DNA of 36,939 nucleotides from Gemmatimonadota bacterium (GTDB lineage Bacteria; Gemmatimonadota; Gemmatimonadetes; Gemmatimonadales; Gemmatimonadaceae), in NCBI GenBank assembly GCA_021299375.1, contig JAJTGR010000023.1, positions 1 through 36,939 of the forward strand, given 5' to 3'. A program made the position numbers and the translations under genes. The notes below the pieces were generated by a model, which was given only the letters and a program-made list of their open reading frames with translations, was not told the DNA's origin and ran no database searches. This document shows, in pieces, positions 2,692 to 21,514 of the stretch (its first letter is position 1; each line of letters opens with the position of its first letter).

Positions 2692-3320
2692 GCGAGGCGC
2701 TGCGCGAGCGCGTCGGCAAGGGCTACAAGCTTCGCCTGGGCAGCCTGCTGTGACCGACGCCACCAGAGATGCGCCGCGGCGAGGCACGGCCCGATCGCCA
2801 CGGCGGCTGCGGCGATGCTGAAGGTCGGCGTCGCGGTGGTCGAGGCGAGGAAGCCCGTCGCCACGGCCGCAGCGACGGCTCCGAAATACAGCACGACCTG
2901 CCGGCCGCTCGCGTGCGCATCGATACGCACGACGGTATGCGCCGACTCGGGCATGATGGAGACCACGGCAGCGCTGAAGCCGGAGTCGTAGCGCCATTCG
3001 ACGCCGTCGCCGACGGCTACGGTGGTGCCCAACTCACCGAACTCTTCCCGCGCGATTCCAATGGCCGCCGTCATCTCGGCCATCGTGGCGCGATGGCCGA
3101 CCTGGCGCACCAGTGGCGCCGCTGCCGGCAACGCAGGCGTCGCCGCCCCAATGGGCATGGCGGCCGCCGCGCGGGTCACCAGCTCCGGGTCGATGTCGAT
3201 CTCCCCGGCGATCCGCTGCATGTCGGCGAGGGAGTACGTGTCGCCCCGCTGCGCGGAGAGTGTGGCTGCCTCGCCGAGAATCGTCTGCAGCGCTTCTTCC
3301 GAGTACCTGCGCTCGCCCAT
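2688..3320 (-). CDS. Small membrane protein with SHOCT-like N-terminal helix-turn-helix
   Basis: A 210-residue protein of unknown function. The first 50 residues (RYSEEALQTILGEAATL, then YSLADMQRIAGEIDIDPELV) resemble short helical modules at the start of many membrane-anchored proteins in Gemmatimonadota and related groups. A central soluble region is followed by two hydrophobic helices near the C-terminus (VVLYFGAVAAAVATGFLA and FSIAAAAVAIGPCLAAAHLWW) and a basic, Gln/Ala-rich tail. The start at 3320 places the conserved helix directly at the N-terminus; an upstream in-frame ATG at 3374 would add 18 unlike residues. It overlaps the downstream hydrolase start by 4 nt, so the two are probably co-translated. 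No enzymatic motif is visible. Confidence 0.75.
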   Translation of the reverse strand: MGERRYSEEALQTILGEAATLSAQRGDTYSLADMQRIAGEIDIDPELVTRAAAAMPIGAATPALPAAAPLVRQVGHRATMAEMTAAIGIAREEFGELGTTVAVGDGVEWRYDSGFSAAVVSIMPESAHTVVRIDAHASGRQVVLYFGAVAAAVATGFLASTTATPTFSIAAAAVAIGPCLAAAHLWWRRSQQAAQAKLVALADALAQRLA

Positions 3321-3484
3321 GGTCCCTGCCGGTGCCGGTTCAGACGTCCTGCAAAGGGCATCGTGTCTGCCCACGCGAAACCTACGGCGTTCCGGGTCGG
3401 TCGGTTGCGATGGCGGCCGTGGCGGTAGCTTACCGGCAGCACTGCGCTCCCTGCTCTTCCCCAGGACCTGTCCCGGATCTGTCC

Positions 3485-4861
3485 ATGTTTCGTCTCCGTC
3501 ATGCCACCGCCGTCACGGCCGCGATCGCCATGCTCACGGCCCCGGATGCGCTCACCGCGCAGCGCCCCGACCGCGCCCGGCTCGTGGCCACGATCGACTC
3601 GATCGTCAACGCGCCCATCACGGCCGCCCAGGTGGCGGGCATCTCCGTCGCGGTGGTCAAGGGTGCCGACACGATCGTCATGAAGGGCTACGGCTGGGCC
3701 GACCTCGATCTCGACACGCCCACCCCGCCCTACGCGATCTACGAGATCGGTTCCATCACCAAGCAGTTCACCACCGCTGCGCTCATGCAGCTGGTGGAGC
3801 AGGGCACGGTGAACCTCGATGCCGATCTGCTGACGTATCTGCCCACGTATCCCTCGCGCGGACAGCACATTCCGGTGCGGCGCCTGCTCGATCACACGTC
3901 CGGCATCCGCTCGTACACGGAGATTCCGGCGGCGCTGAAGCTCTTCCCGCTCACCGTGTCGCACGACTCGGTCATGGCGCTCGTCGGCAATGCGGGCTTC
4001 GACTTCAGCACCGGCGAAGCGCTGATCTACAACAATTCGGCGTACTTTCTCGCGGGCATGATCATCGAGAAGGTCACCGGCCAGAAGTACGCCGACTACG
4101 TCAAGACCAATCTGTTCGACCGCGTGGGCATGCCGCGGTCGGCGTACTGCACGGAGGACGTGGTCACCAAGGGCAAGGTGCACGGCTACACGTTCGGTGG
4201 GATGCTCCGCAAGGCCGAACAGCAGAATCACTCGTGGCCGTTCTCGGCGGGCTCGCTCTGCTCCACCACCGGCGACCTGCTGGCGTGGTTGCGGGCCTTG
4301 CACACGTCGGACCAGGTGGTGACGCGCGCGTCCTACCGGGAGATGATCACCCCGGGCACGCTCACTGACGGCTATCGTGTGCGCTATGCCAAGGGCCTCA
4401 CCAACCTCATCGACGAGGGACGTCAGGTGATCAGCCATGGCGGCGGCATCAGCGGCTACACCTCCGAGTCGCGCTTCTACCCGGCGGACAGCCTGTACAT
4501 CGTGGTACTCACCAACACGGCAGGTCCGGTGTCGCCGAGCGCCATTGCGCAATCGATCGCGAAGGCGGTGCTGGGTCCGGGTACGCCGCTGGCCGCCGTG
4601 TCGGCACCGAGCGACCTCACCCCGTACGCTGGTCGCTTCCGTGGCCCCGGACGTGGCAATCCCACCGACGTGCGCTTCGCCGTGGAGGACGGGCGGCTGA
4701 CGGTGGCCGGCTCCCCCGGGCGCCCGCTGCAGTATCTGGGGAACGACACGTTCGGCGTGGGGACCACCCGCTACCTGTTCCTGCGCGATGCGTCGCGGGC
4801 CGTGCACGCGGTGCGGGTGGACAATGTGAGCGTCGTGTCCGTGGCGAAGCGGGTGCGCTGA
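3485..4861 (+). CDS. Secreted serine hydrolase, class C beta-lactamase/esterase-like
   Basis: A 458-residue exported enzyme of the beta-lactamase superfamily (penicillin-binding/esterase type, Pfam Beta-lactamase). The three active-site motifs are present: S90-I-T-K93 (SxxK nucleophile), Y182-N-N184 (YxN) and H318-G-G320 in place of KTG. An N-terminal signal peptide ends near LTAQ (about residue 26), giving a periplasmic or surface location. The last about 100 residues form a beta-rich C-terminal domain like those in related peptidases. Members include D-aminopeptidases, esterases and true beta-lactamases; the HGG motif is commoner in esterase/peptidase members, so resistance should not be assumed. 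It is divergent from the membrane-protein/hydrolase pair. Confidence 0.92.
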   Translation: MFRLRHATAVTAAIAMLTAPDALTAQRPDRARLVATIDSIVNAPITAAQVAGISVAVVKGADTIVMKGYGWADLDLDTPTPPYAIYEIGSITKQFTTAALMQLVEQGTVNLDADLLTYLPTYPSRGQHIPVRRLLDHTSGIRSYTEIPAALKLFPLTVSHDSVMALVGNAGFDFSTGEALIYNNSAYFLAGMIIEKVTGQKYADYVKTNLFDRVGMPRSAYCTEDVVTKGKVHGYTFGGMLRKAEQQNHSWPFSAGSLCSTTGDLLAWLRALHTSDQVVTRASYREMITPGTLTDGYRVRYAKGLTNLIDEGRQVISHGGGISGYTSESRFYPADSLYIVVLTNTAGPVSPSAIAQSIAKAVLGPGTPLAAVSAPSDLTPYAGRFRGPGRGNPTDVRFAVEDGRLTVAGSPGRPLQYLGNDTFGVGTTRYLFLRDASRAVHAVRVDNVSVVSVAKRVR

Positions 4862-5531: not shown

Positions 5532-8500
5532 CTACATCGCATTCGGCCTTCTTGCCGGTGGCGCCAGCGCGGGCAGTCCGAGCGACTGCAGCAGCGGATT
5601 GATGCGCGCCACGGTCGCCTCCACCTGGCGCTCGACCATCTCGATCACCGTCTGCGCATCGCGGCGCACATCGCCGGCGTATTCGAGTTGACTGGGGATG
5701 GCGGGGTTGAGCCCGCTGTCGATCGAGCCGAGCAGCCCCATGGCCCGCTCGAGCGGGCGCGGCCCCTCGGAGTAGAACGGTACCTTGTCGAGCGCCGGCC
5801 GCGTGACCTGCAGCCGCACGGCGTCGAGCTTGCCGATCTCCTCACTCGCGGCGGTCACCAGCGCGCGCGCGGCGTCGCCGCGCATCTCGGCGCCCGACTT
5901 GCTCCGCTCATCCACCTGGCCGCGGAACGCCACCAGATTGCGTTCCGTGTCGATGAGGTTGGCGATCACGCTGCTGAGCCGCTGTGCCTGCTCGAACTGG
6001 GTCTGCAGCGTCGCCATGGAGATACCCGACGACGGATCGATGCGCACGGTGAGCGGCTGCTCCTGCACCTGGCCGTTCACCGTGAGGCGTACGGCGTAGG
6101 CGCCTGGCAGCGCCTGCGGTCCGACCGGCCGCGAACGCCAGTCGCCCGGCGCCGAGGAGTCGGCCGGCATGTCGCTCAGCACCCTCGGCGGCTCGTAGCG
6201 GAGGTCCCACGCCACCCGGTTGAAGCCGGCCGCCGCCGAGGGTTTCTTGATTTTGCGGATCACGGCGCCGTTGTGGAGGATCTCGACGGTCACCAGCGAG
6301 TCGGCCGCTGGCTTGTCCTTGAGCCAGTAGGTGATGCTCGCGCCGTACTCGGCGTTGGTGCCCTTGAAGGCCAGGCTGCCCCAGCTCCATTCACCGCCGC
6401 CGGTGTTGAATCGCGTGGCGGCGCGCGGCGGAAACAGGTGGGCGGCCTTGGCCGCAATCTGCGGCGTCATCTGCTGGATGGGCGCCGCGTCGTCGAAGAT
6501 CCAGATCGCGCGCCCGTGCGTGGCCACGATCAGGTCGTTGTCGCGCGGATGTACGCGCACCTCGTGCACGGCCACGTTGGGCAGGTTGCCAAGGTGCAGC
6601 TTCGTCCAATCGCCCTTGCCGCCGGCCCAGTTCGCGAACAGGCCGAGCTCCGTGCCGACATACACGAGGTTCGTGTTCTTCGGGTCTTCACGCACCACTT
6701 GCACATACGCGGTGGCCGGGAGGTTGCCGGTGATGTTCGTCCACGTGCGGCCGTAGTCGGTCGTCTTGAACACGTAGGGCTTGAAGTCGTCCATCATGCG
6801 CCGCTCGATGCCCACGTACGCCGTGCCGGCGTCGGTATGCGACGGCTCCACCGCCGAGATGACGGCGTTGGGGCCGACGCCGGGAATGTTCGCGGCGACG
6901 TTCACCCAGCGCTTCCCGTCATCCTGTGTGACCTGCACGTTGCCGTCGTCGGTGCCGGCCCAGATGACGCCCTTCTTCACCGGCGATTCCTCCAGCGAGT
7001 ACACCGTGCCGTAGTACTCGGCCACCGTGTTCTCCTTGAGAATCGGGCCGCCGGCATCGCCCTGGCGTGACGTGTCGTTCTTCGACAAGTCGGGGGAGAT
7101 GACCGTCCAGGTGGTGCCCCAGTCGGTGGAGCGGAAGACGATGTTGCCCGCGAAGTACACCACCTTGCCGTCGTGCGGCGACTTCACGATGGGCGCGTTC
7201 CAATTGAAGCGGACCTTGTTGGAGTCGGCCGGATACCCGTCCATGCGCTTGGGCTGCGGGCTCGCTTCGCGCTGCTCGAAGGTGCGCAGGTTGGTGGCCA
7301 CGATGCCGCCGGCCTGCAGGTCGGAGAGGAAGCGGTCGGGGTCGTCCGGGTGCGACACGGCGTAGTAGCCATCGCCACCCTGGATGAAGCGCCACGCATC
7401 GGCAAGGATCGCGCTGCCGCGCGAACGGCTCGGGCCCACCCACGTGCCGTTGTCCTGCAGCCCGCCCGACACCGAGTAGAACGGCTCGCGCATGTCGTAG
7501 CTGACCTGATAGAACTGACCCACCGGCAGGTTCGGGAACCACTGCCAGGCGCCGCCGCGGTCGTAGGTGACGTTGATGCCGCCATCGTCACCCATGAACA
7601 TGCGCCGCGGGTTCTGCGGATCGATCCACATGGTCTGGTGATCGCCGTGGAAGTTGCCCGACATCGGCGTGAACGTCGCGCCGCCGTCGATGGACAGGCT
7701 GAACGACATGCCGAGCGTGTAGACGCGGTTCTCGTTGACCGGATCGACGCGCAGGTCGGCGTAATAGAAGCCGCGCCCGAGCGTGTGCGCATTGTCGCTG
7801 GTCTTGACCCAGCTCTCGCCGAAGTCCGTGGACTTGAACACGTAGCCGGCGCGCGTCTCGGCCACGGCGTACACGATGTTGGGCGACGACGGCGCCACCT
7901 TGATGCCGATGCGCCCGATCAGCGTCGGTAGTCCCTTGGTGGCCTTGCTCCAGGTCTTGCCGCCGTCCACGGAGCGGTAGATGCCGCCTTTCTCGTCGCC
8001 CGAGGTGAACGTCCACTGTTTGCGGTCGAAGTGCCACATGCCGGCGTAGAGCAGGTTGGGGTTCTTCGGGTCGATGTCGAGGTCGGACGCGCCGTGCACG
8101 GTGTCGAGGTAGAGCACCTTCGTCCACGTCTCGCCGGCGTCCTCGCTCATGAACACGCCGCGTTCCTCGTTGGGGCCGAACGCGTGGCCGACGGCGGCCA
8201 CGTACACCTTGCGTGGGTCGAGCGGGTTGATGACGATGCGCGCAATGTGCCGCGTGTCCGCCAGCCCCAGCCAGCGCCACGTGCGGCCGCCGTCGGTGGA
8301 CTTGTAGACGCCATTGCCGAACGACACGGAGTTGCGGACGTTCGCTTCGCCGGTACCCACGTAGATGACGTCGGGGTTGGTGGGGTCGACGGCCATGTCA
8401 CCGATGGACTGCACCGGCTGCTTGTCGAAGAGCGGTTTCCAGGTCACGCCGCCATTGGTGGTCTTCCAGACACCTCCCGAGGCCGCCGAGACGTACACCG

Positions 8501-8723
8501 TGCTCGGGTCGCCGGGGATCCCTTCCACGTCACTGATGCGCCCCGACATGTTGGCCGGCCCGATGTTGCGATAGGCGAGACCGGCGAAGGTCGAGTCGGT
8601 GATCGCGGCCGGCGGGGCCGGTGTGGCGGTGCGGGCCGCGCCCTGCGCGGTCGCGTTCACGAGAGGCAGCAGCGTCAGCAGCGCAAGGCCGCTCGGCACG
8701 ATGGACCACGGGGTACGGGGCAT
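5532..8723 (-). CDS. Secreted BNR/sortilin-type beta-propeller protein
   Basis: A 1063-residue exported protein belonging to the sortilin (VPS10)/'glycosyl hydrolase' BNR-repeat group that is abundant in Gemmatimonadota and Bacteroidota. After a signal peptide ending near ATAQG, the protein begins with FAGLAYRNIGPANMSGRISD, a family hallmark. Many Asp-box repeats follow, for example KSTDGGRTWRW, SEDAGETWTK, SVDGGKTWSK, STDFGESWVK, STDWGTTWTV and TTDYGRTWTN, consistent with one or two beta-propellers. A C-terminal beta-domain contains YWLKDKPAADS and FNRVAWDLRYEPP. The function is not established; peptide or protein binding, or a non-canonical hydrolase, are the usual proposals. The start at 8723 is the ATG directly before the signal peptide. 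The frame stays open far upstream into an alpha/beta hydrolase remnant. Confidence 0.9.
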   Translation of the reverse strand: MPRTPWSIVPSGLALLTLLPLVNATAQGAARTATPAPPAAITDSTFAGLAYRNIGPANMSGRISDVEGIPGDPSTVYVSAASGGVWKTTNGGVTWKPLFDKQPVQSIGDMAVDPTNPDVIYVGTGEANVRNSVSFGNGVYKSTDGGRTWRWLGLADTRHIARIVINPLDPRKVYVAAVGHAFGPNEERGVFMSEDAGETWTKVLYLDTVHGASDLDIDPKNPNLLYAGMWHFDRKQWTFTSGDEKGGIYRSVDGGKTWSKATKGLPTLIGRIGIKVAPSSPNIVYAVAETRAGYVFKSTDFGESWVKTSDNAHTLGRGFYYADLRVDPVNENRVYTLGMSFSLSIDGGATFTPMSGNFHGDHQTMWIDPQNPRRMFMGDDGGINVTYDRGGAWQWFPNLPVGQFYQVSYDMREPFYSVSGGLQDNGTWVGPSRSRGSAILADAWRFIQGGDGYYAVSHPDDPDRFLSDLQAGGIVATNLRTFEQREASPQPKRMDGYPADSNKVRFNWNAPIVKSPHDGKVVYFAGNIVFRSTDWGTTWTVISPDLSKNDTSRQGDAGGPILKENTVAEYYGTVYSLEESPVKKGVIWAGTDDGNVQVTQDDGKRWVNVAANIPGVGPNAVISAVEPSHTDAGTAYVGIERRMMDDFKPYVFKTTDYGRTWTNITGNLPATAYVQVVREDPKNTNLVYVGTELGLFANWAGGKGDWTKLHLGNLPNVAVHEVRVHPRDNDLIVATHGRAIWIFDDAAPIQQMTPQIAAKAAHLFPPRAATRFNTGGGEWSWGSLAFKGTNAEYGASITYWLKDKPAADSLVTVEILHNGAVIRKIKKPSAAAGFNRVAWDLRYEPPRVLSDMPADSSAPGDWRSRPVGPQALPGAYAVRLTVNGQVQEQPLTVRIDPSSGISMATLQTQFEQAQRLSSVIANLIDTERNLVAFRGQVDERSKSGAEMRGDAARALVTAASEEIGKLDAVRLQVTRPALDKVPFYSEGPRPLERAMGLLGSIDSGLNPAIPSQLEYAGDVRRDAQTVIEMVERQVEATVARINPLLQSLGLPALAPPARRPNAM

Positions 8724-8768
8724 GGCTGTGACAGGGGAGAGGGGACGGAGAGTCGGTTGGCGCCGGCG

Positions 8769-9287
8769 CCACCGCGGCATGGTGCGCATGACCACGTCGG
8801 TGGCGTCGAGCTGCACGAAGTGCCCGGCGTTCGCTGCGGTCACGTTGGTGAGATCGGTGTTCACGAACTCCCAGGTGCCGCTCGGGGCGCCGGCAAGCGG
8901 AGAGCGGTCATTCAGTCCGCGGATCATCAGCACCGGCGCCCCGAGCTTCACGAGCGGCGTGGGGTCGACCGTGTGGGGTTCGCCGGGGGTGTTGGCCTTG
9001 TTGTCGTTCAGCATCCCCTCGACGCACGACGGCCGCACGGGCTCGACGAAGCGGGCGCGCGCCATGGCCATCAACCAGATGCACCGCGCCCGAGAGCCGT
9101 GGAGCATCACGAAGAGCGGCGTGTGCGCATCCCCCAGCGTCGTGTCGTGGATCGTCACGTCGCTGGAGTTCGCGAAGCCGTGGGTCACGCGGGAGGTGAT
9201 GTTGGTGACGGCGGCGAGTGACTGAAACCTTGCCGGGGCCGTGAGGGCAAGCCAGCCAGCGATGAGCAGTCGGTGCAATGCGATCAA
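8769..9287 (-). pseudogene. Internally deleted alpha/beta hydrolase pseudogene
   Basis: Reads as the two ends of a secreted epoxide-hydrolase-like alpha/beta hydrolase. The N-terminal part has a signal-like stretch (LIALHRLLIAGWLALTAPA), a strand region and the oxyanion segment FVMLHGS. The C-terminal part has APVLMIRGLND (acid region), TWEFVNTDLTNVTAANAGHF (catalytic His region) and a final helix ending MRTMPRW. The middle, which should carry the GxSxG nucleophile elbow and cap domain (roughly 150 residues), is missing, and the two parts join in frame after HGS. No ATG is found at the front; TTG at 9287 is the only reasonable start. No stop separates it from the BNR gene. Most likely inactive. 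Confidence 0.72.
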
Positions 9288-9682
9288 TTGGCATGCCGAC
9301 CAAGAGGCGCGCAAGTGACGGGACGGCGGACGCTGGTGACGGGGCGACGACTGGCGAGGGGAACGCACCACGAGTGCACGGGCTACGTGTCGCCTCGCGG
9401 GTGCCTTCCCCTCTTCGAAGGCCTTGCGCCAATGCCGACGGCTGCCGTAGCGAACCGGCTCCTCACCAATCCGCGAAGCGGTGTCGATGGGGAGGCGCGC
9501 CGTGGCGGCGCAATCGTCCGATAACGGATCCCGGATCATGACCAAGGAGGAGCCGCGGCGCCATGCGACTGGGGCGTGGGCGCCGCGACGTCCACCGTGG
9601 TCGGTGTCCGATGGCTGGGGTGCTGGGAATTCGCGGTCTCGGAGCGACACGGCACACCGCCCCGCCACCGACCCCACGCTGC
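9288..9682. other. No recognisable gene
   Basis: A 395-bp stretch between the hydrolase remnant and the orphan gene at 9683. Frames are open on both strands, but the translations are Arg/Pro/Ala-rich and match no family I know. A purine-rich AAGGAGGAG at 9544-9552 stands 10 nt before an ATG at 9563, but that frame gives only 46 low-complexity residues. Probably decayed sequence. Confidence 0.4.
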
Positions 9683-10723
9683 TCAGAAACGCTCGAGCGT
9701 CTCCGGTAGTCGCCCGCCGTGTCGGCGTTGGCGAAAGATCGCCTCGCCGAACCGGAAGGCGATGACTTCGAGTTCGCGGTGGTCGTACCGTGCCGAGGCC
9801 GCCGACAGCAGGCGGGGGGGATGTCCGCCGTGGTAGTCCTTCTCGAGCCGCGCCTGCACCTGCACCCAGCCGTGTCGCTCCCCAAGCGTCTGTGCCGCCG
9901 CGATACCTTGTCGGGCAACGGTGGCATGGGCGCCGATGTAGTGGTCGTGCGGGTGTCCATAGGCTTCGCGCACGAACGCCGCCGCCCATTGATTGGCCTG
10001 CCCCCGATCTTCGCCGAGGCGGCGCAGGTAGTCGGTGTACGCCATCGTGGCGTCGCGCAGACCGTAGGAAATGGGAATCGCCCACCCGATCGGACCGGCC
10101 CAGGTAGCGAAGAAGTTCGAGCTGGCCAGCGACGTGGCCGACGGCGCGATGCCGGGGATCGCGCGCATCAGCACCCGCGTCAGCCCCGGACCCGCGCGCA
10201 GCGCCAGCTGCTGCATGGCCAGAGCACTGGGGCCGATCAGCATCGCCCCCTCCACCGAGCCGGTCGCTTCGGTCGATCGGCTCTCCAGCGCCGCACGTTG
10301 AAAATGGACACGTACGCCGAAGAAGCAGAAGTCGGAGTCGGCCTGCACGTCGACCGTGAGGTTGGCCTCGTCGGTGCCGAACTGTACGCGTGGGTTGAAG
10401 CCGCGGATGAGCGCCGAGACGAAACCGCACGGCGACGGATTCGCGATCAGCCGATCCAATCGCGAGGCCTGAAGTTCCGTGCTGGCGCCAATGGTGATGT
10501 TGTCCGCGATGTGCCGTTCGGCGCCGAGCGTGAGCGTCCGCTCGGTATCCACGGTGGGGTGGCCGGTGGTGCGATCATGGCTAGGCGACGCGGTGCCGCC
10601 GTCGGCAACGGTGACCGGCCCCCGGGCGGCGACGCTTGCCTCGGCCGATATGCCGAACTTGAAGCGTACGAGTCCGATCTCGAACGGACCGATCGGGACC
10701 TCGATTCCATAGACGGCGGACAT
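9683..10723 (-). CDS. Orphan hypothetical protein, 346 residues
   Basis: I do not recognise this protein. The ATG at 10723 has a good GAGG ribosome-binding site 6 nt upstream, which favours it over an in-frame ATG at 10840. The first 145 residues look beta-rich (IEVPIGPFEIGLVRFKFGI, LTLGAERHIADNITIGAS, VQFGTDEANLTVDVQADS, FCFFGVRVHFQRA). Residues 160-225 are small and hydrophobic (LIGPSALAMQQLALRAG, FFATWAGPIGWAIPISYG) and could insert in or line a membrane. The rest is helical and charged, with an H-rich patch GHPHDHYIGAH near 257. There is no signal peptide and no catalytic motif. It sits alone between two pseudogenes, so recent arrival or decay of its neighbours is possible. A two-part secreted or structural protein cannot be excluded. 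Confidence 0.6.
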   Translation of the reverse strand: MSAVYGIEVPIGPFEIGLVRFKFGISAEASVAARGPVTVADGGTASPSHDRTTGHPTVDTERTLTLGAERHIADNITIGASTELQASRLDRLIANPSPCGFVSALIRGFNPRVQFGTDEANLTVDVQADSDFCFFGVRVHFQRAALESRSTEATGSVEGAMLIGPSALAMQQLALRAGPGLTRVLMRAIPGIAPSATSLASSNFFATWAGPIGWAIPISYGLRDATMAYTDYLRRLGEDRGQANQWAAAFVREAYGHPHDHYIGAHATVARQGIAAAQTLGERHGWVQVQARLEKDYHGGHPPRLLSAASARYDHRELEVIAFRFGEAIFRQRRHGGRLPETLERF

Positions 10724-16518: not shown

Positions 16519-17355
16519 CTACCGCCGCCCCACCTTCGCCTCCTCCACCAGCAGCGCATACACGTACCCCGCGCCCACGTCCCGGTTGGTGCGCACGATG
16601 CCAGTTACCGTCACCGTGTCACCGATGGCGGCCTCCGCGCGCGACGTGACCGCCAGATCGTGCGTGCCCGTGGAGGCCGAGCCACTCCCATCCTGCAGGT
16701 GCAGCCAGTTCCTCCCCATCACACCGGCGTTGACCTTCACGACCACGCCGCGTACCGACACGGACTTTCCGACGAGCTGCGCCTTCCGGGCCCACAGCTC
16801 GCCGATGGTGTGCGCGTCGGCCCCACTCGCGCGCGCGATGCGGCCCACACGCGCATCCTCGGCCGGTGGCGTCCCGGCAGTGGCTGGCGCCGATGGGGCC
16901 GCCGACAGGACCGGGTGCCCGGGCGGCATGGCGGCAGCCGCCTCGGTCTGGGCACCGGCCCCCGCACCCGCATCGGCACCCGCCACCGGCTCCAGCGACC
17001 CGAAATAGATCGTCGCGAAGGTGCGATGGAGGCTCGGCGACGCGAACCGCTCCATGCGCATCACGTTGTGCACGGTGACCTCGTTCCCGTTCGTGACCGG
17101 GGCCGCGGCCACCGCGGCCCACAGCTTGCCGGCCGGCGTCTCGAGCCGCAGATAGATGTACGGCCCCACCGGGATCTGCTCGCGCACGGTGCCCGTGATG
17201 CTGCTGCCCGGGGCGAAGGCCGAGCCGGCTGCGGAGCCGGCTGCCGCCGCGGGAACGGCCGCGGCGGGCGTGCCCGAGGCCTTTGGGGTGCCCTTGCTCT
17301 CGGCGCACCCCACGATGAACAGCACGACCAGACCCACGGCGACGGTGCCACGCAT
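16519..17355 (-). CDS. OB-fold lipoprotein
   Basis: A 278-residue lipoprotein: signal MRGTVAVGLVVLFIVGC gives Cys17 in a good IVGC lipobox. Two OB-like segments follow. The first (ITGTVREQIPVGPYIYLRL, then TPAGKLWAAV and NEVTVHNVM) resembles NrfJ-like domains. The second (GVVVKVNAGVMGRNWLHLQD, then DTVTVTGIV) is the pattern seen in small secreted OB-fold proteins. The segments are joined by an Ala/Pro-rich linker. The role is unknown; binding of a small ligand or another protein is likely. The start at 17355 is chosen because it begins directly at the signal peptide; an ATG at 17439 would add 28 residues. It is divergent from the phosphotransferase gene and upstream of the sulfatase. Confidence 0.82.
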   Translation of the reverse strand: MRGTVAVGLVVLFIVGCAESKGTPKASGTPAAAVPAAAAGSAAGSAFAPGSSITGTVREQIPVGPYIYLRLETPAGKLWAAVAAAPVTNGNEVTVHNVMRMERFASPSLHRTFATIYFGSLEPVAGADAGAGAGAQTEAAAAMPPGHPVLSAAPSAPATAGTPPAEDARVGRIARASGADAHTIGELWARKAQLVGKSVSVRGVVVKVNAGVMGRNWLHLQDGSGSASTGTHDLAVTSRAEAAIGDTVTVTGIVRTNRDVGAGYVYALLVEEAKVGRR

Positions 17356-17568
17356 GATGAACTCGACCCGGTGATGAAGACGCGACGGTACGGGAGTGGC
17401 GGAACCGGGCATGGCCCGGCCGCCACTCATGCGTGACAACGTCTGCTGCCGACCAAGAGGTCCCCTGACGCGACGTCAACGCACATTGGCCCGTGGGTCC
17501 GCATGCAGGAGCGCCGGATCGGTGAGGCGCTGGCGCTCGATGACCATTTCGCCGTGGGGGGACACCGC

Positions 17569-18354
17569 ATGACCATCTATCAGGCGCTCGTCGATCTCCA
17601 CCTCGCCGGCTACGCCCCCGTCGCTACCAACCAAGGCGAATCGGGCGGCGTGCTGACCCGTTTCGTCGCCCCACACCGCCCGTCGCTGTTCCTCAAGCAG
17701 GGCACCGGCGCGGTGGCCGACGACATCGCCGCCGAGCATCTTCGCCTGCGCTGGCTGCAGCGGCACGTGCCGTGTCCCGCGGTCGTGGCGTTCGCCTGCG
17801 AGGGGGACGCTGCGGCGCTGCTCACCACGGCGGTGCCGGGCGTCACAGCGTACGAGGCCATCACCGCTGATCCGTCGCGCGCGCCGGCTGTGGCCGAAGT
17901 CCTCACGGCGACGCTCCGCGCCCTGCACACGCTGCCGGTGGCCACGTGCCCGTTCGACGCGAGCCTGCCGGTGCGCCTGTCTGCAGCGCGCGCGCGTGTG
18001 CGCGCCGGGCTGGTGGACGAAGACGACTTCGGCGATCTGCACACGGGATGGTCAGCAACGCAAGTGCTGGAAGCGCTCGAGCGCGATCTCGCCGGTGGGC
18101 TGCCGCTGGCGCGGGTCGTGACGCACGGCGACTTCTCGCTGGGCAACGTGCTCGTGCACGAGGGGCGCGTGAGCGGCGTCATCGACGTGGGGCGGCTCGG
18201 TGTGGCCGATCCCTATCAGGACCTCGCCATCCTCCACGACAACCTCGCCGAATTCGGCGAGGCGGCGCAGGTGGCGTTGTGGCGGGGGTATGGCATCGCG
18301 CAGCCGGACGAGGCGCGGCGGGTGGCGCACCTGCGGCTCGATGAGCTGTTCTGA
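17569..18354 (+). CDS. APH(3')-II-like aminoglycoside 3'-phosphotransferase
   Basis: A 261-residue kinase closely following the APH(3') family in order, spacing and length (APH(3')-IIa is 264 residues). Visible are the ATP lysine K43 (LFLKQG) and E57, LHTLPVATCPFD, the RARVRAGLVDEDDFGDLHTG stretch, the Brenner motif VTHGDFSLGN (D188, N193), IDVGRLGVADPYQDLA (D206) and the C-terminal LDELF. The family phosphorylates the 3'-OH of kanamycin/neomycin-type aminoglycosides with ATP. The start at 17569 follows a GGGGGGA tract 7 nt upstream and matches family length; an upstream ATG at 17503 would add 22 residues. There are no mobile-element signs nearby and base composition matches the neighbours, so it looks chromosomal. 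Activity on drugs is inferred. Confidence 0.9.
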   Translation: MTIYQALVDLHLAGYAPVATNQGESGGVLTRFVAPHRPSLFLKQGTGAVADDIAAEHLRLRWLQRHVPCPAVVAFACEGDAAALLTTAVPGVTAYEAITADPSRAPAVAEVLTATLRALHTLPVATCPFDASLPVRLSAARARVRAGLVDEDDFGDLHTGWSATQVLEALERDLAGGLPLARVVTHGDFSLGNVLVHEGRVSGVIDVGRLGVADPYQDLAILHDNLAEFGEAAQVALWRGYGIAQPDEARRVAHLRLDELF

Positions 18355-18376: not shown

Positions 18377-18862
18377 TCAGCTCGCCTGCTGGTCGCGCTC
18401 CTCGGCAAGGAGTTCCAGCTCGGCAATCGCTTCCAGATCCTTCGGTCGGCCGGCCGCGCGTTTGACCGCAATCAGGCGTTCAAGGGACAGCACCCGCAGC
18501 GGCACGCCGAACACCGTCCCCTCGAGTGAATGCGGGAGCAGGGCGGCGTAATCTCCGCCCCCGGTGATCTCGCCGAGCAGGTCGATGGGGCCGAGCGACG
18601 TCTGCAGGGTGAAGTTGAGCCCGGCGCGCAGCGCCCGGACGCCCCATTCGAAGGGGAGGCCCGGCGGGGCACCACGCAAGTACGGCGCGAAGGGAGTGAG
18701 CGCCTCCGCCAGGCGTCGCAGATTGTCGTCATCCCGGTCGTAGACGAAATCGATATCGTCGGTGAGGCGGGCTGCGCCGTGCAGGCGACCCGCGACACCG
18801 CCCACCAGGATCACACGCGCCCCGGCCTCGTGAAACACCCGCAGGACGCGTGCGAAGTCCAT
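18377..18862 (-). CDS. MNT/DUF6036-like nucleotidyltransferase
   Basis: A 161-residue minimal nucleotidyltransferase. The fold signature is seen at the front: VILVGGVAGRLHGAARLTDD followed by IDFVYD, giving GG (21-22) and the metal-binding D36-x-D38. The protein continues with a hydrophobic core strand (LNFTLQTSLGPIDLLGEI) and a C-terminal RLIAVKRAAGRPKDLEAIAEL helix typical of AbiEii/DUF6036-like proteins. It is read from an ATG at 18862 that overlaps the stop of the 63-residue gene by one base (TGATG), so the two are translationally coupled. Related domains occur in toxin-antitoxin and abortive-infection systems and in housekeeping proteins; no toxin role is shown here. It converges on the APH gene. 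Confidence 0.85.
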   Translation of the reverse strand: MDFARVLRVFHEAGARVILVGGVAGRLHGAARLTDDIDFVYDRDDDNLRRLAEALTPFAPYLRGAPPGLPFEWGVRALRAGLNFTLQTSLGPIDLLGEITGGGDYAALLPHSLEGTVFGVPLRVLSLERLIAVKRAAGRPKDLEAIAELELLAEERDQQAS

Positions 18863-19053
18863 CAGGCCCGTCCGCGCAGGCGCTGGCCGGCGGCGCCGAG
18901 TTCCGCCGCGAGCTCTTGTAGCTGCTGCAGCGCCAGCAGCCGTTCCTCCCACGTCAGCCGCAGGTTCTCCCGCAGCAACGTACGGTCCACGTCGCGCTTG
19001 TAGGCCTCGATGACCGGATCGGGGGGCAGTGGGCGAGCGGCCGGGTCACTCAT
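18862..19053 (-). CDS. Small coiled-coil partner of the nucleotidyltransferase
   Basis: A 63-residue charged protein. It is mostly helical: DPVIEAYKRDVDRTLLREN, then LRLTWEERLLALQQLQELAA, with a basic tail RLRGRA. Proteins with this 'KRDVDRTLLRENL+LT.EER' pattern are often found directly before a DUF6036-like nucleotidyltransferase, as here. Coupling through a TGATG overlap suggests equal dosage and a complex. The start ATG at 19051-19053 has no obvious Shine-Dalgarno. Function unknown; an antitoxin-like or DNA-binding partner is a hypothesis only. Confidence 0.78.
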   Translation of the reverse strand: MSDPAARPLPPDPVIEAYKRDVDRTLLRENLRLTWEERLLALQQLQELAAELGAAGQRLRGRA

Positions 19054-20119: not shown

Positions 20120-21514
20120 CTACACCGCCGTCCGCTTCCAGGCACCGCGCCGAAAGAACACCGCACTGACCATCGCCAGCGCGGTGTAGGCGATCGGCAC
20201 GGCGCCGAACACGCCACGGTAGGTGAGGGCGGTATGCTGCGACAGCCACCACGCCAACGGCAGCTGCACCACCCAGAACGCGAACACGTTCATCCAGGTG
20301 GGCGTCCGGGTATCGCCGGCACCGTTGAACGACTGCTCCAGCACCATGCCCAACGCGTACAGCGGGAAGCCCAGTGACATGGTACGCAGCCCGTTGATAC
20401 CCACCGCTCGGACCGTCGCCACCTCGCTGAACCACCCCACGATGGTGGGGGCGAACAGCCAGAACGCCACGCCCGTCAACCCAAGGACCACCATGTTGAG
20501 GCGCGCCGCCACCCACACCGCGCGTTCGGCGCGATCGGGGTTCCGGGCACCCAGCGCCTGGCCGACCATGGTGGAGGCCGCAGCCCCCACGCCGTACGCC
20601 GGCATGAGCGCAAACAGCAGCACGCGAATGGCGATGGTGTAGCCCGCCACCACCGTCGACCCGAAGGTCGACATGAGGCGCACCAGGGCGATCCAGCTCA
20701 TCGATCCGAGGGCGACCTGTACGGTGCCCCATCCCGATAGCGTGGCGATGTGCAGCATGGTGGTGGGTTCGACCCGCAGGTGCGGTCGGTGCACGTGCAG
20801 GTTCCCCTCGCCGGTGCTGAGGTGCCAGAGCGCCCACAGGAAGCCGATGGCGCGTCCGATGGCCGTGGCCCATGCTGCCCCCTCGATGCCGAGCGCGGGG
20901 ACGGGGCCCAGGCCGAAGATCAGCAGCGGGTCGAGCACGATGTTGATGGCGTTGCCGAGCATGAGCACGCGCATCGCCACCGCGGCATCGCCGGCGCCGC
21001 GAAACGCCGCATTGATGAGGAAAAGCAGGAAGATCCCGCCATTGCAGGCCAGGGAAATGCGCGCGAACCCCGTGCCCACCGCCAGCACCTCGGCATCGGC
21101 ACCCATCAGCGAGAGCAGCTCGCCGGCGAAGACCGCGCCGATCACCCCGAGCACGCTGGAGAGCAGGAGCCCGAGCAGGAGCCCCTGCACGGTGGCGCGG
21201 GCCGCCCTGTCCGGGTCCTTCTCGCCGATGCGGCGGGCCACGGTGGCGGTGACGCCGATGCTGAGCCCCATGGCCACGGTGTAGATGACCACCATGAGCG
21301 ACTCGGTGAGCCCGATGGTGGCTACCGCCGCCGGCCCGAGACGCCCCACGAAGAAGGCATCGACGACGGCGAAGATGCTCTCCATGGACATCTCGAGCAC
21401 CATGGGCACGGCGAGCAGGAAGATCGCCCGGCCGATCGGCCCCTGGGTGTAATCGTGTTCAGCGCCGCGAAGGGCGTCGCGGATGTCGCGCCAGAGTGTA
21501 GCCGACTGGGGCAC
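20120..21514 (-). CDS. MATE-family efflux transporter
   Basis: A 464-residue inner-membrane protein with about 12 helices in two homologous halves, the size and layout of NorM/DinF-type MATE transporters, which export cationic drugs or metabolites using Na+ or H+ gradients. Characteristic stretches are FLLAVPMVLEMSMESIFAVV, DAFFVGRLGPAAVATIGLTE, FRGAGDAAVAMRVLMLGNAI, NIVLDPLLIFG and, in the second half, MVGQALGARNPDRAER and FNGAGDTRTPTWMN. The start is GTG at 21514, 15 bp after the ridA-like gene, and the PIG-L gene follows after 8 bp, so the three are very likely one transcript. Substrate unknown. Confidence 0.92.
   Translation of the reverse strand: MPQSATLWRDIRDALRGAEHDYTQGPIGRAIFLLAVPMVLEMSMESIFAVVDAFFVGRLGPAAVATIGLTESLMVVIYTVAMGLSIGVTATVARRIGEKDPDRAARATVQGLLLGLLLSSVLGVIGAVFAGELLSLMGADAEVLAVGTGFARISLACNGGIFLLFLINAAFRGAGDAAVAMRVLMLGNAINIVLDPLLIFGLGPVPALGIEGAAWATAIGRAIGFLWALWHLSTGEGNLHVHRPHLRVEPTTMLHIATLSGWGTVQVALGSMSWIALVRLMSTFGSTVVAGYTIAIRVLLFALMPAYGVGAAASTMVGQALGARNPDRAERAVWVAARLNMVVLGLTGVAFWLFAPTIVGWFSEVATVRAVGINGLRTMSLGFPLYALGMVLEQSFNGAGDTRTPTWMNVFAFWVVQLPLAWWLSQHTALTYRGVFGAVPIAYTALAMVSAVFFRRGAWKRTAV

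Follow-up and report, generated by a model that had tools for sequence, protein, structure and literature searches.

The gene examined here raises the question of which branch of the aminoglycoside 3'-phosphotransferases its product belongs to, and whether drugs or some other compound would be its substrate. The window, which comprises an entire 36.9-kb draft contig, contains an intact, uninterrupted 261-residue frame at 17569–18354 (+), identified by family profiles, solved structures, a phylogenetic tree and a structural model as an aph(3')-I-like gene. All catalytic APH motifs are present, namely HGDFSLGN, IDVGRLGVADPYQD and LDELF. An alternative upstream ATG at 17503 would yield a protein of 283 residues, 22 residues longer. 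The start at 17569 was preferred because the family profile matches begin only at residues 8–11 of the 261-residue protein and because GGGGGG lies just upstream of the 17569 ATG. The gene is solitary; the upstream gene (16519–17439) is divergent and a nucleotidyltransferase-like gene (18377–18952, −) is convergent, 22 bases away. A scan that says little in this phylum found no standard sigma-70-type promoter for the aph gene. The convergent gene encodes an AbiEii/DUF6036-like protein with relatives in 23 of the 30 genomes of the genus, many of which have several copies, some with in-frame stops.

No transposase, integrase, relaxase or replication/plasmid gene was seen among the Pfam matches and open frames of the contig, several of the frames being without a match, which agrees with the absence of a transposon, integron or plasmid context noted originally. 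The setting of the aph gene is apparently chromosomal and non-mobile; a 36.9-kb draft contig alone is also compatible with a large replicon. The Pfam matches across the window point to metabolism, transport and regulation, and include HxlR, a beta-lactamase fold (PF00144), a Na/H exchanger, sulfatase, MATE, HDOD, rhomboid, MFS, amidohydrolase, TonB receptor and transketolase. No foreign composition was seen for the aph gene, the GC content of 0.715 (neighbours, 0.66–0.73) and GC3 of 0.87 fitting the host, and flanking repeats that could mark an insertion occur at chance level only. Orthologues of the neighbouring sulfatase, 77–84% identical, are found in three genomes (G028, G003 and G025), beyond which only DUF4342 aligns (in locus L085). 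The region is not collinear, and therefore no insertion boundary could be read by the empty-site test. Three other frames of the window were noted. The 582-residue beta-lactamase-fold protein (3113–4861, +; PF00144, 7e-54) could be an esterase or peptidase instead of a resistance enzyme. A MATE-family exporter (20120–21514, −; PF01554, 2.9e-60) lies ~2 kb from the aph gene. A 1632-residue frame (5532–10430, −) with sortilin/VPS10-type and BNR repeat matches may be partly non-coding.

The 261-residue protein matches the Pfam APH family at 1.4e-33, the NCBIfam APH(3') equivalog NF033068 at 8.3e-71 and APH(3')-Ia in the PDB at 2e-60, so that a chance match is excluded. The NF033068 score of 238.5 bits exceeds the curated cut-off of 205 bits, and on these sequence scores membership in the APH(3') family is supported. 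The best subfamily model is APH(3')-I (NF033059) with 279.5 bits, below its curated cut-off of 400 bits; the protein is therefore a relative on the I branch, outside the named APH(3')-I enzymes. The APH(3')-II model (NF032898; cut-off 360 bits, likewise missed) yields 188.6 bits, and the amino acid identity is 43% to APH(3')-I vs 37–39% to APH(3')-II. The close match to APH(3')-II enzymes that had been proposed was thus not borne out. The nearest solved structures are those of APH(3')-Ia with ATP or kanamycin, followed by APH(3')-IIa (1.3e-39) and then IIb. An AlphaFold model built from a 37-row alignment (pLDDT of 93.1) superposes on the APH(3')-Ia crystal structure 4ej7 with a RMSD of 1.0 Å over 255 columns and a TM score of 0.95, against 2.3 Å for APH(3')-IIa. 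Placement among the homoserine or fructosamine kinases was also considered; the family scores give it no support, and the tree described below was built without such an outgroup.

The residue positions inspected were chosen from what we take to be the important positions of APH(3')-IIa and IIIa. The alignment shows that the catalytic and most substrate-contact residues are retained: K43, E56, D153, D188, N193, D206, R209, E228, D258, E259 and F261. K43 (17695–17697, +), the ATP-binding lysine equivalent to K44 of APH(3')-IIIa, is conserved in all 48 clade members and is accompanied by the ATP-binding Glu, E56. The Brenner motif HxDxxxxN spans residues 186–193 (18124–18147, +) and contains the catalytic Asp188 and Asn193, and the Mg-binding/activation motif IDVGRLGVADPYQD at residues 205–218 (18181–18222, +) contains the Mg-binding Asp206 and Arg209. 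The C-terminal LDELF (residues 257–261; 18337–18351, +) places Asp258, Glu259 and Phe261 at the positions of Asp261, Glu262 and Phe264. The last two are drug-contacting residues, critical in APH(3')-IIIa (PMC3691515). The aminoglycoside-binding loop corresponds to residues 152–156 (D-D-F-G-D; 18022–18036, +), and the acidic residues of this loop, Glu157 and Glu160 in APH(3')-IIIa, bind drug (PMC3691515). D152 occupies the Glu157 position and G155 the Glu160 position, with D153 and D156 close by. A glycine at the G155 position is common to 4 of 48 clade members; G192 and D224 are further departures from the clade consensus. The corresponding residues of APH(3')-Ia are D167, D202 and N234. Because G155, G192 and D224 deviate from the clade, the affinity or the drug range may differ. 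That the protein represents a deep, little-sampled APH(3')-I branch in which these three residues give a different drug range, with the Gemmatimonadaceae as a separate APH(3') reservoir, is unlikely.

In our assessment, the gene very probably encodes an aminoglycoside kinase of the APH(3')-I branch, carried as a stand-alone, apparently chromosomal accessory gene that would protect against the aminoglycosides of neighbours. Judged from its family, activity of the protein on drugs is likely. If expressed, the enzyme would catalyze the Mg2+-dependent transfer of the gamma-phosphate of NTP to the 3'-hydroxyl of neamine-containing aminoglycosides, presumably kanamycin, neomycin, paromomycin and ribostamycin, and the phosphorylated drugs would no longer bind the ribosome. 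The points that weigh against this assignment are an identity of only 43% to a tested enzyme, a long branch in the tree and the G155, G192 and D224 deviations.

An alignment-based search with one genome per species identified 447 stretches that encode relatives. Among the best 80 of these are genes on the chromosomes of Sphingomonas, Massilia, Duganella and Janthinobacterium as well as known APH(3')-Ia copies, some on short contigs that could stem from cloning vectors or contamination. No neighbour gene was found to recur next to the aph relatives across genera, the two widest clusters being aph itself and its antisense frame; six loci, mostly of Sphingomonas, have flanks in common among themselves. 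Phage carriage was sought as well: matches occur in 12 phage records, all below 60% identity, the strongest being to a laboratory cassette and to strA-type genes. An APH(3')-I-like gene that belongs to the same branch and shares 48% identity with that of the window occurs at 5935–6750 of the Moraxella osloensis plasmid pNP7-1, where it adjoins an IS3-family transposase. It groups with Massilia timonae (support 99/89), and its mobilisation from an Oxalobacteraceae source is possible.

Within the genus, an APH(3')-I-like gene occurs in four of 30 genomes, and the carriers exhibit at least three different gene neighbourhoods. Two of the loci (L002 and L004) are alike and adjoin a gene that by its sequence resembles exodeoxyribonuclease III, while the neighbours of a third (L003) and of the window gene differ from that locus and from each other. 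The aph gene is accessory in the genus because so few genomes carry it, and in differing neighbourhoods; it would have been acquired or differentially retained there. Any match at all is found in 16 of the 179 Gemmatimonadaceae genomes. Gemmatimonas groenlandica is reportedly susceptible to neomycin (PMC7844134); should genome G029 represent that species, it is without the aph gene. Another genome of the family has a broken APH(3')-like fragment (L175; G146:C81:264-644) with three in-frame stops, suggesting that the gene is decaying within the family.

These data also bear on a kinase with the APH(3') fold that acts on another aminosugar or a cell metabolite and has little or no drug activity; an enzyme for another aminosugar was a possibility raised in the original prediction. 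The environmental, non-mobile setting is compatible with such an enzyme, as are G155 at an acidic loop position and the other deviations from the clade consensus. However, most aminoglycoside-contacting residues are retained, a dedicated pathway predicts a recurrent neighbour family and none recurs across genera, and the patchy distribution speaks against a core metabolic role. We consider this function quite improbable.

The position of the APH(3')-I-branch kinase among known enzymes was examined in a 58-row maximum-likelihood tree that included APH(3')-Ia, IIa, IIb, IIIa, VIb, XV and APH(3'')-Ib. The window protein lies inside a clade of 49 rows together with APH(3')-Ia (support 100/100), and the other six reference enzymes all fall outside. 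A Citrobacter gillenii protein (L148) is placed within the same clade. The branch of the window protein is long, 1.05 vs a median of 0.28, and its position within the clade is only loosely fixed: one tree joins it with three genus members in a single branch with support of only 69/30, and a constraint uniting it with the other Gemmatimonadaceae members is not rejected (p-AU 0.35).

That branch and the host-like composition are what might be expected of a gene native to the genus and passed on vertically, near the source of clinical APH(3')-I, and a native ancestor-like gene had indeed been proposed. Yet 26 of the 30 genomes of the genus, not all of which are complete, have no match, the window neighbourhood is unlike those of the other three carriers, and many Proteobacterial genes resemble APH(3')-Ia more closely (62–76% identity) than the window gene does (43%). 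The patchy presence in at least three neighbourhoods means that the gene is not established as a conserved native one, and we regard such an origin as improbable. Membership in the APH(3')-II subclass is hardly credible: IIa and IIb are recognisable relatives and short stretches such as GRLGVADxYQD are common to the window protein and IIa, but the subfamily scores and the predicted structure both favor APH(3')-I, and forcing the protein into a group with IIa and IIb lowers the log-likelihood by 66.9 (p-AU 0.000128), which refutes this grouping under the model used. The original assignment therefore holds for the APH(3') family and fails for the subclass.

The best PDB match, APH(3')-Ia (AphA1), resembles the window protein in fold, catalytic motifs, clade and length class; it is 43% identical and differs in being located on mobile elements. 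APH(3')-IIa and IIb are APH(3') enzymes with identical catalytic residues that belong to a separate clade. APH(3')-Ie of C. gillenii is likewise chromosomal and of the APH(3')-I branch, but it shares about 75% of its residues with APH(3')-Ia and comes from another phylum (PMC11320999). Measurements show that it acts on ribostamycin, kanamycin, neomycin and paromomycin, so that a chromosomal gene of this branch can encode a genuine drug kinase (PMC11320999). The predicted enzymes of Sphingomonas, Massilia, Duganella and Janthinobacterium (among loci L090–L169) share about 46–56% identity with the window protein and are chromosomal genes of the same clade, without gene linkage conserved across genera; their hosts, in contrast, are Pseudomonadota, and many are more similar to APH(3')-Ia than the window gene is. 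With a model covering APH(3') and APH(3''), Lund et al. predicted 1,146 new families, from environmental and pathogenic bacteria, and found gene and host trees clearly mismatched (PMC10400643). That large screen also tested 28 of its predicted aminoglycoside-modifying enzymes in E. coli, where 24 conferred resistance (PMC10400643). Since so many families had already been predicted, the overall picture is unchanged: the window gene is an ordinary further, distant member of a resistance family already widespread in environmental bacteria. With its subclass corrected, it extends the environmental reservoir already known for APH(3')-I-like enzymes by a carrier from the Gemmatimonadaceae, and in soil or water the enzyme would shield this host from the aminoglycosides of neighbouring organisms.
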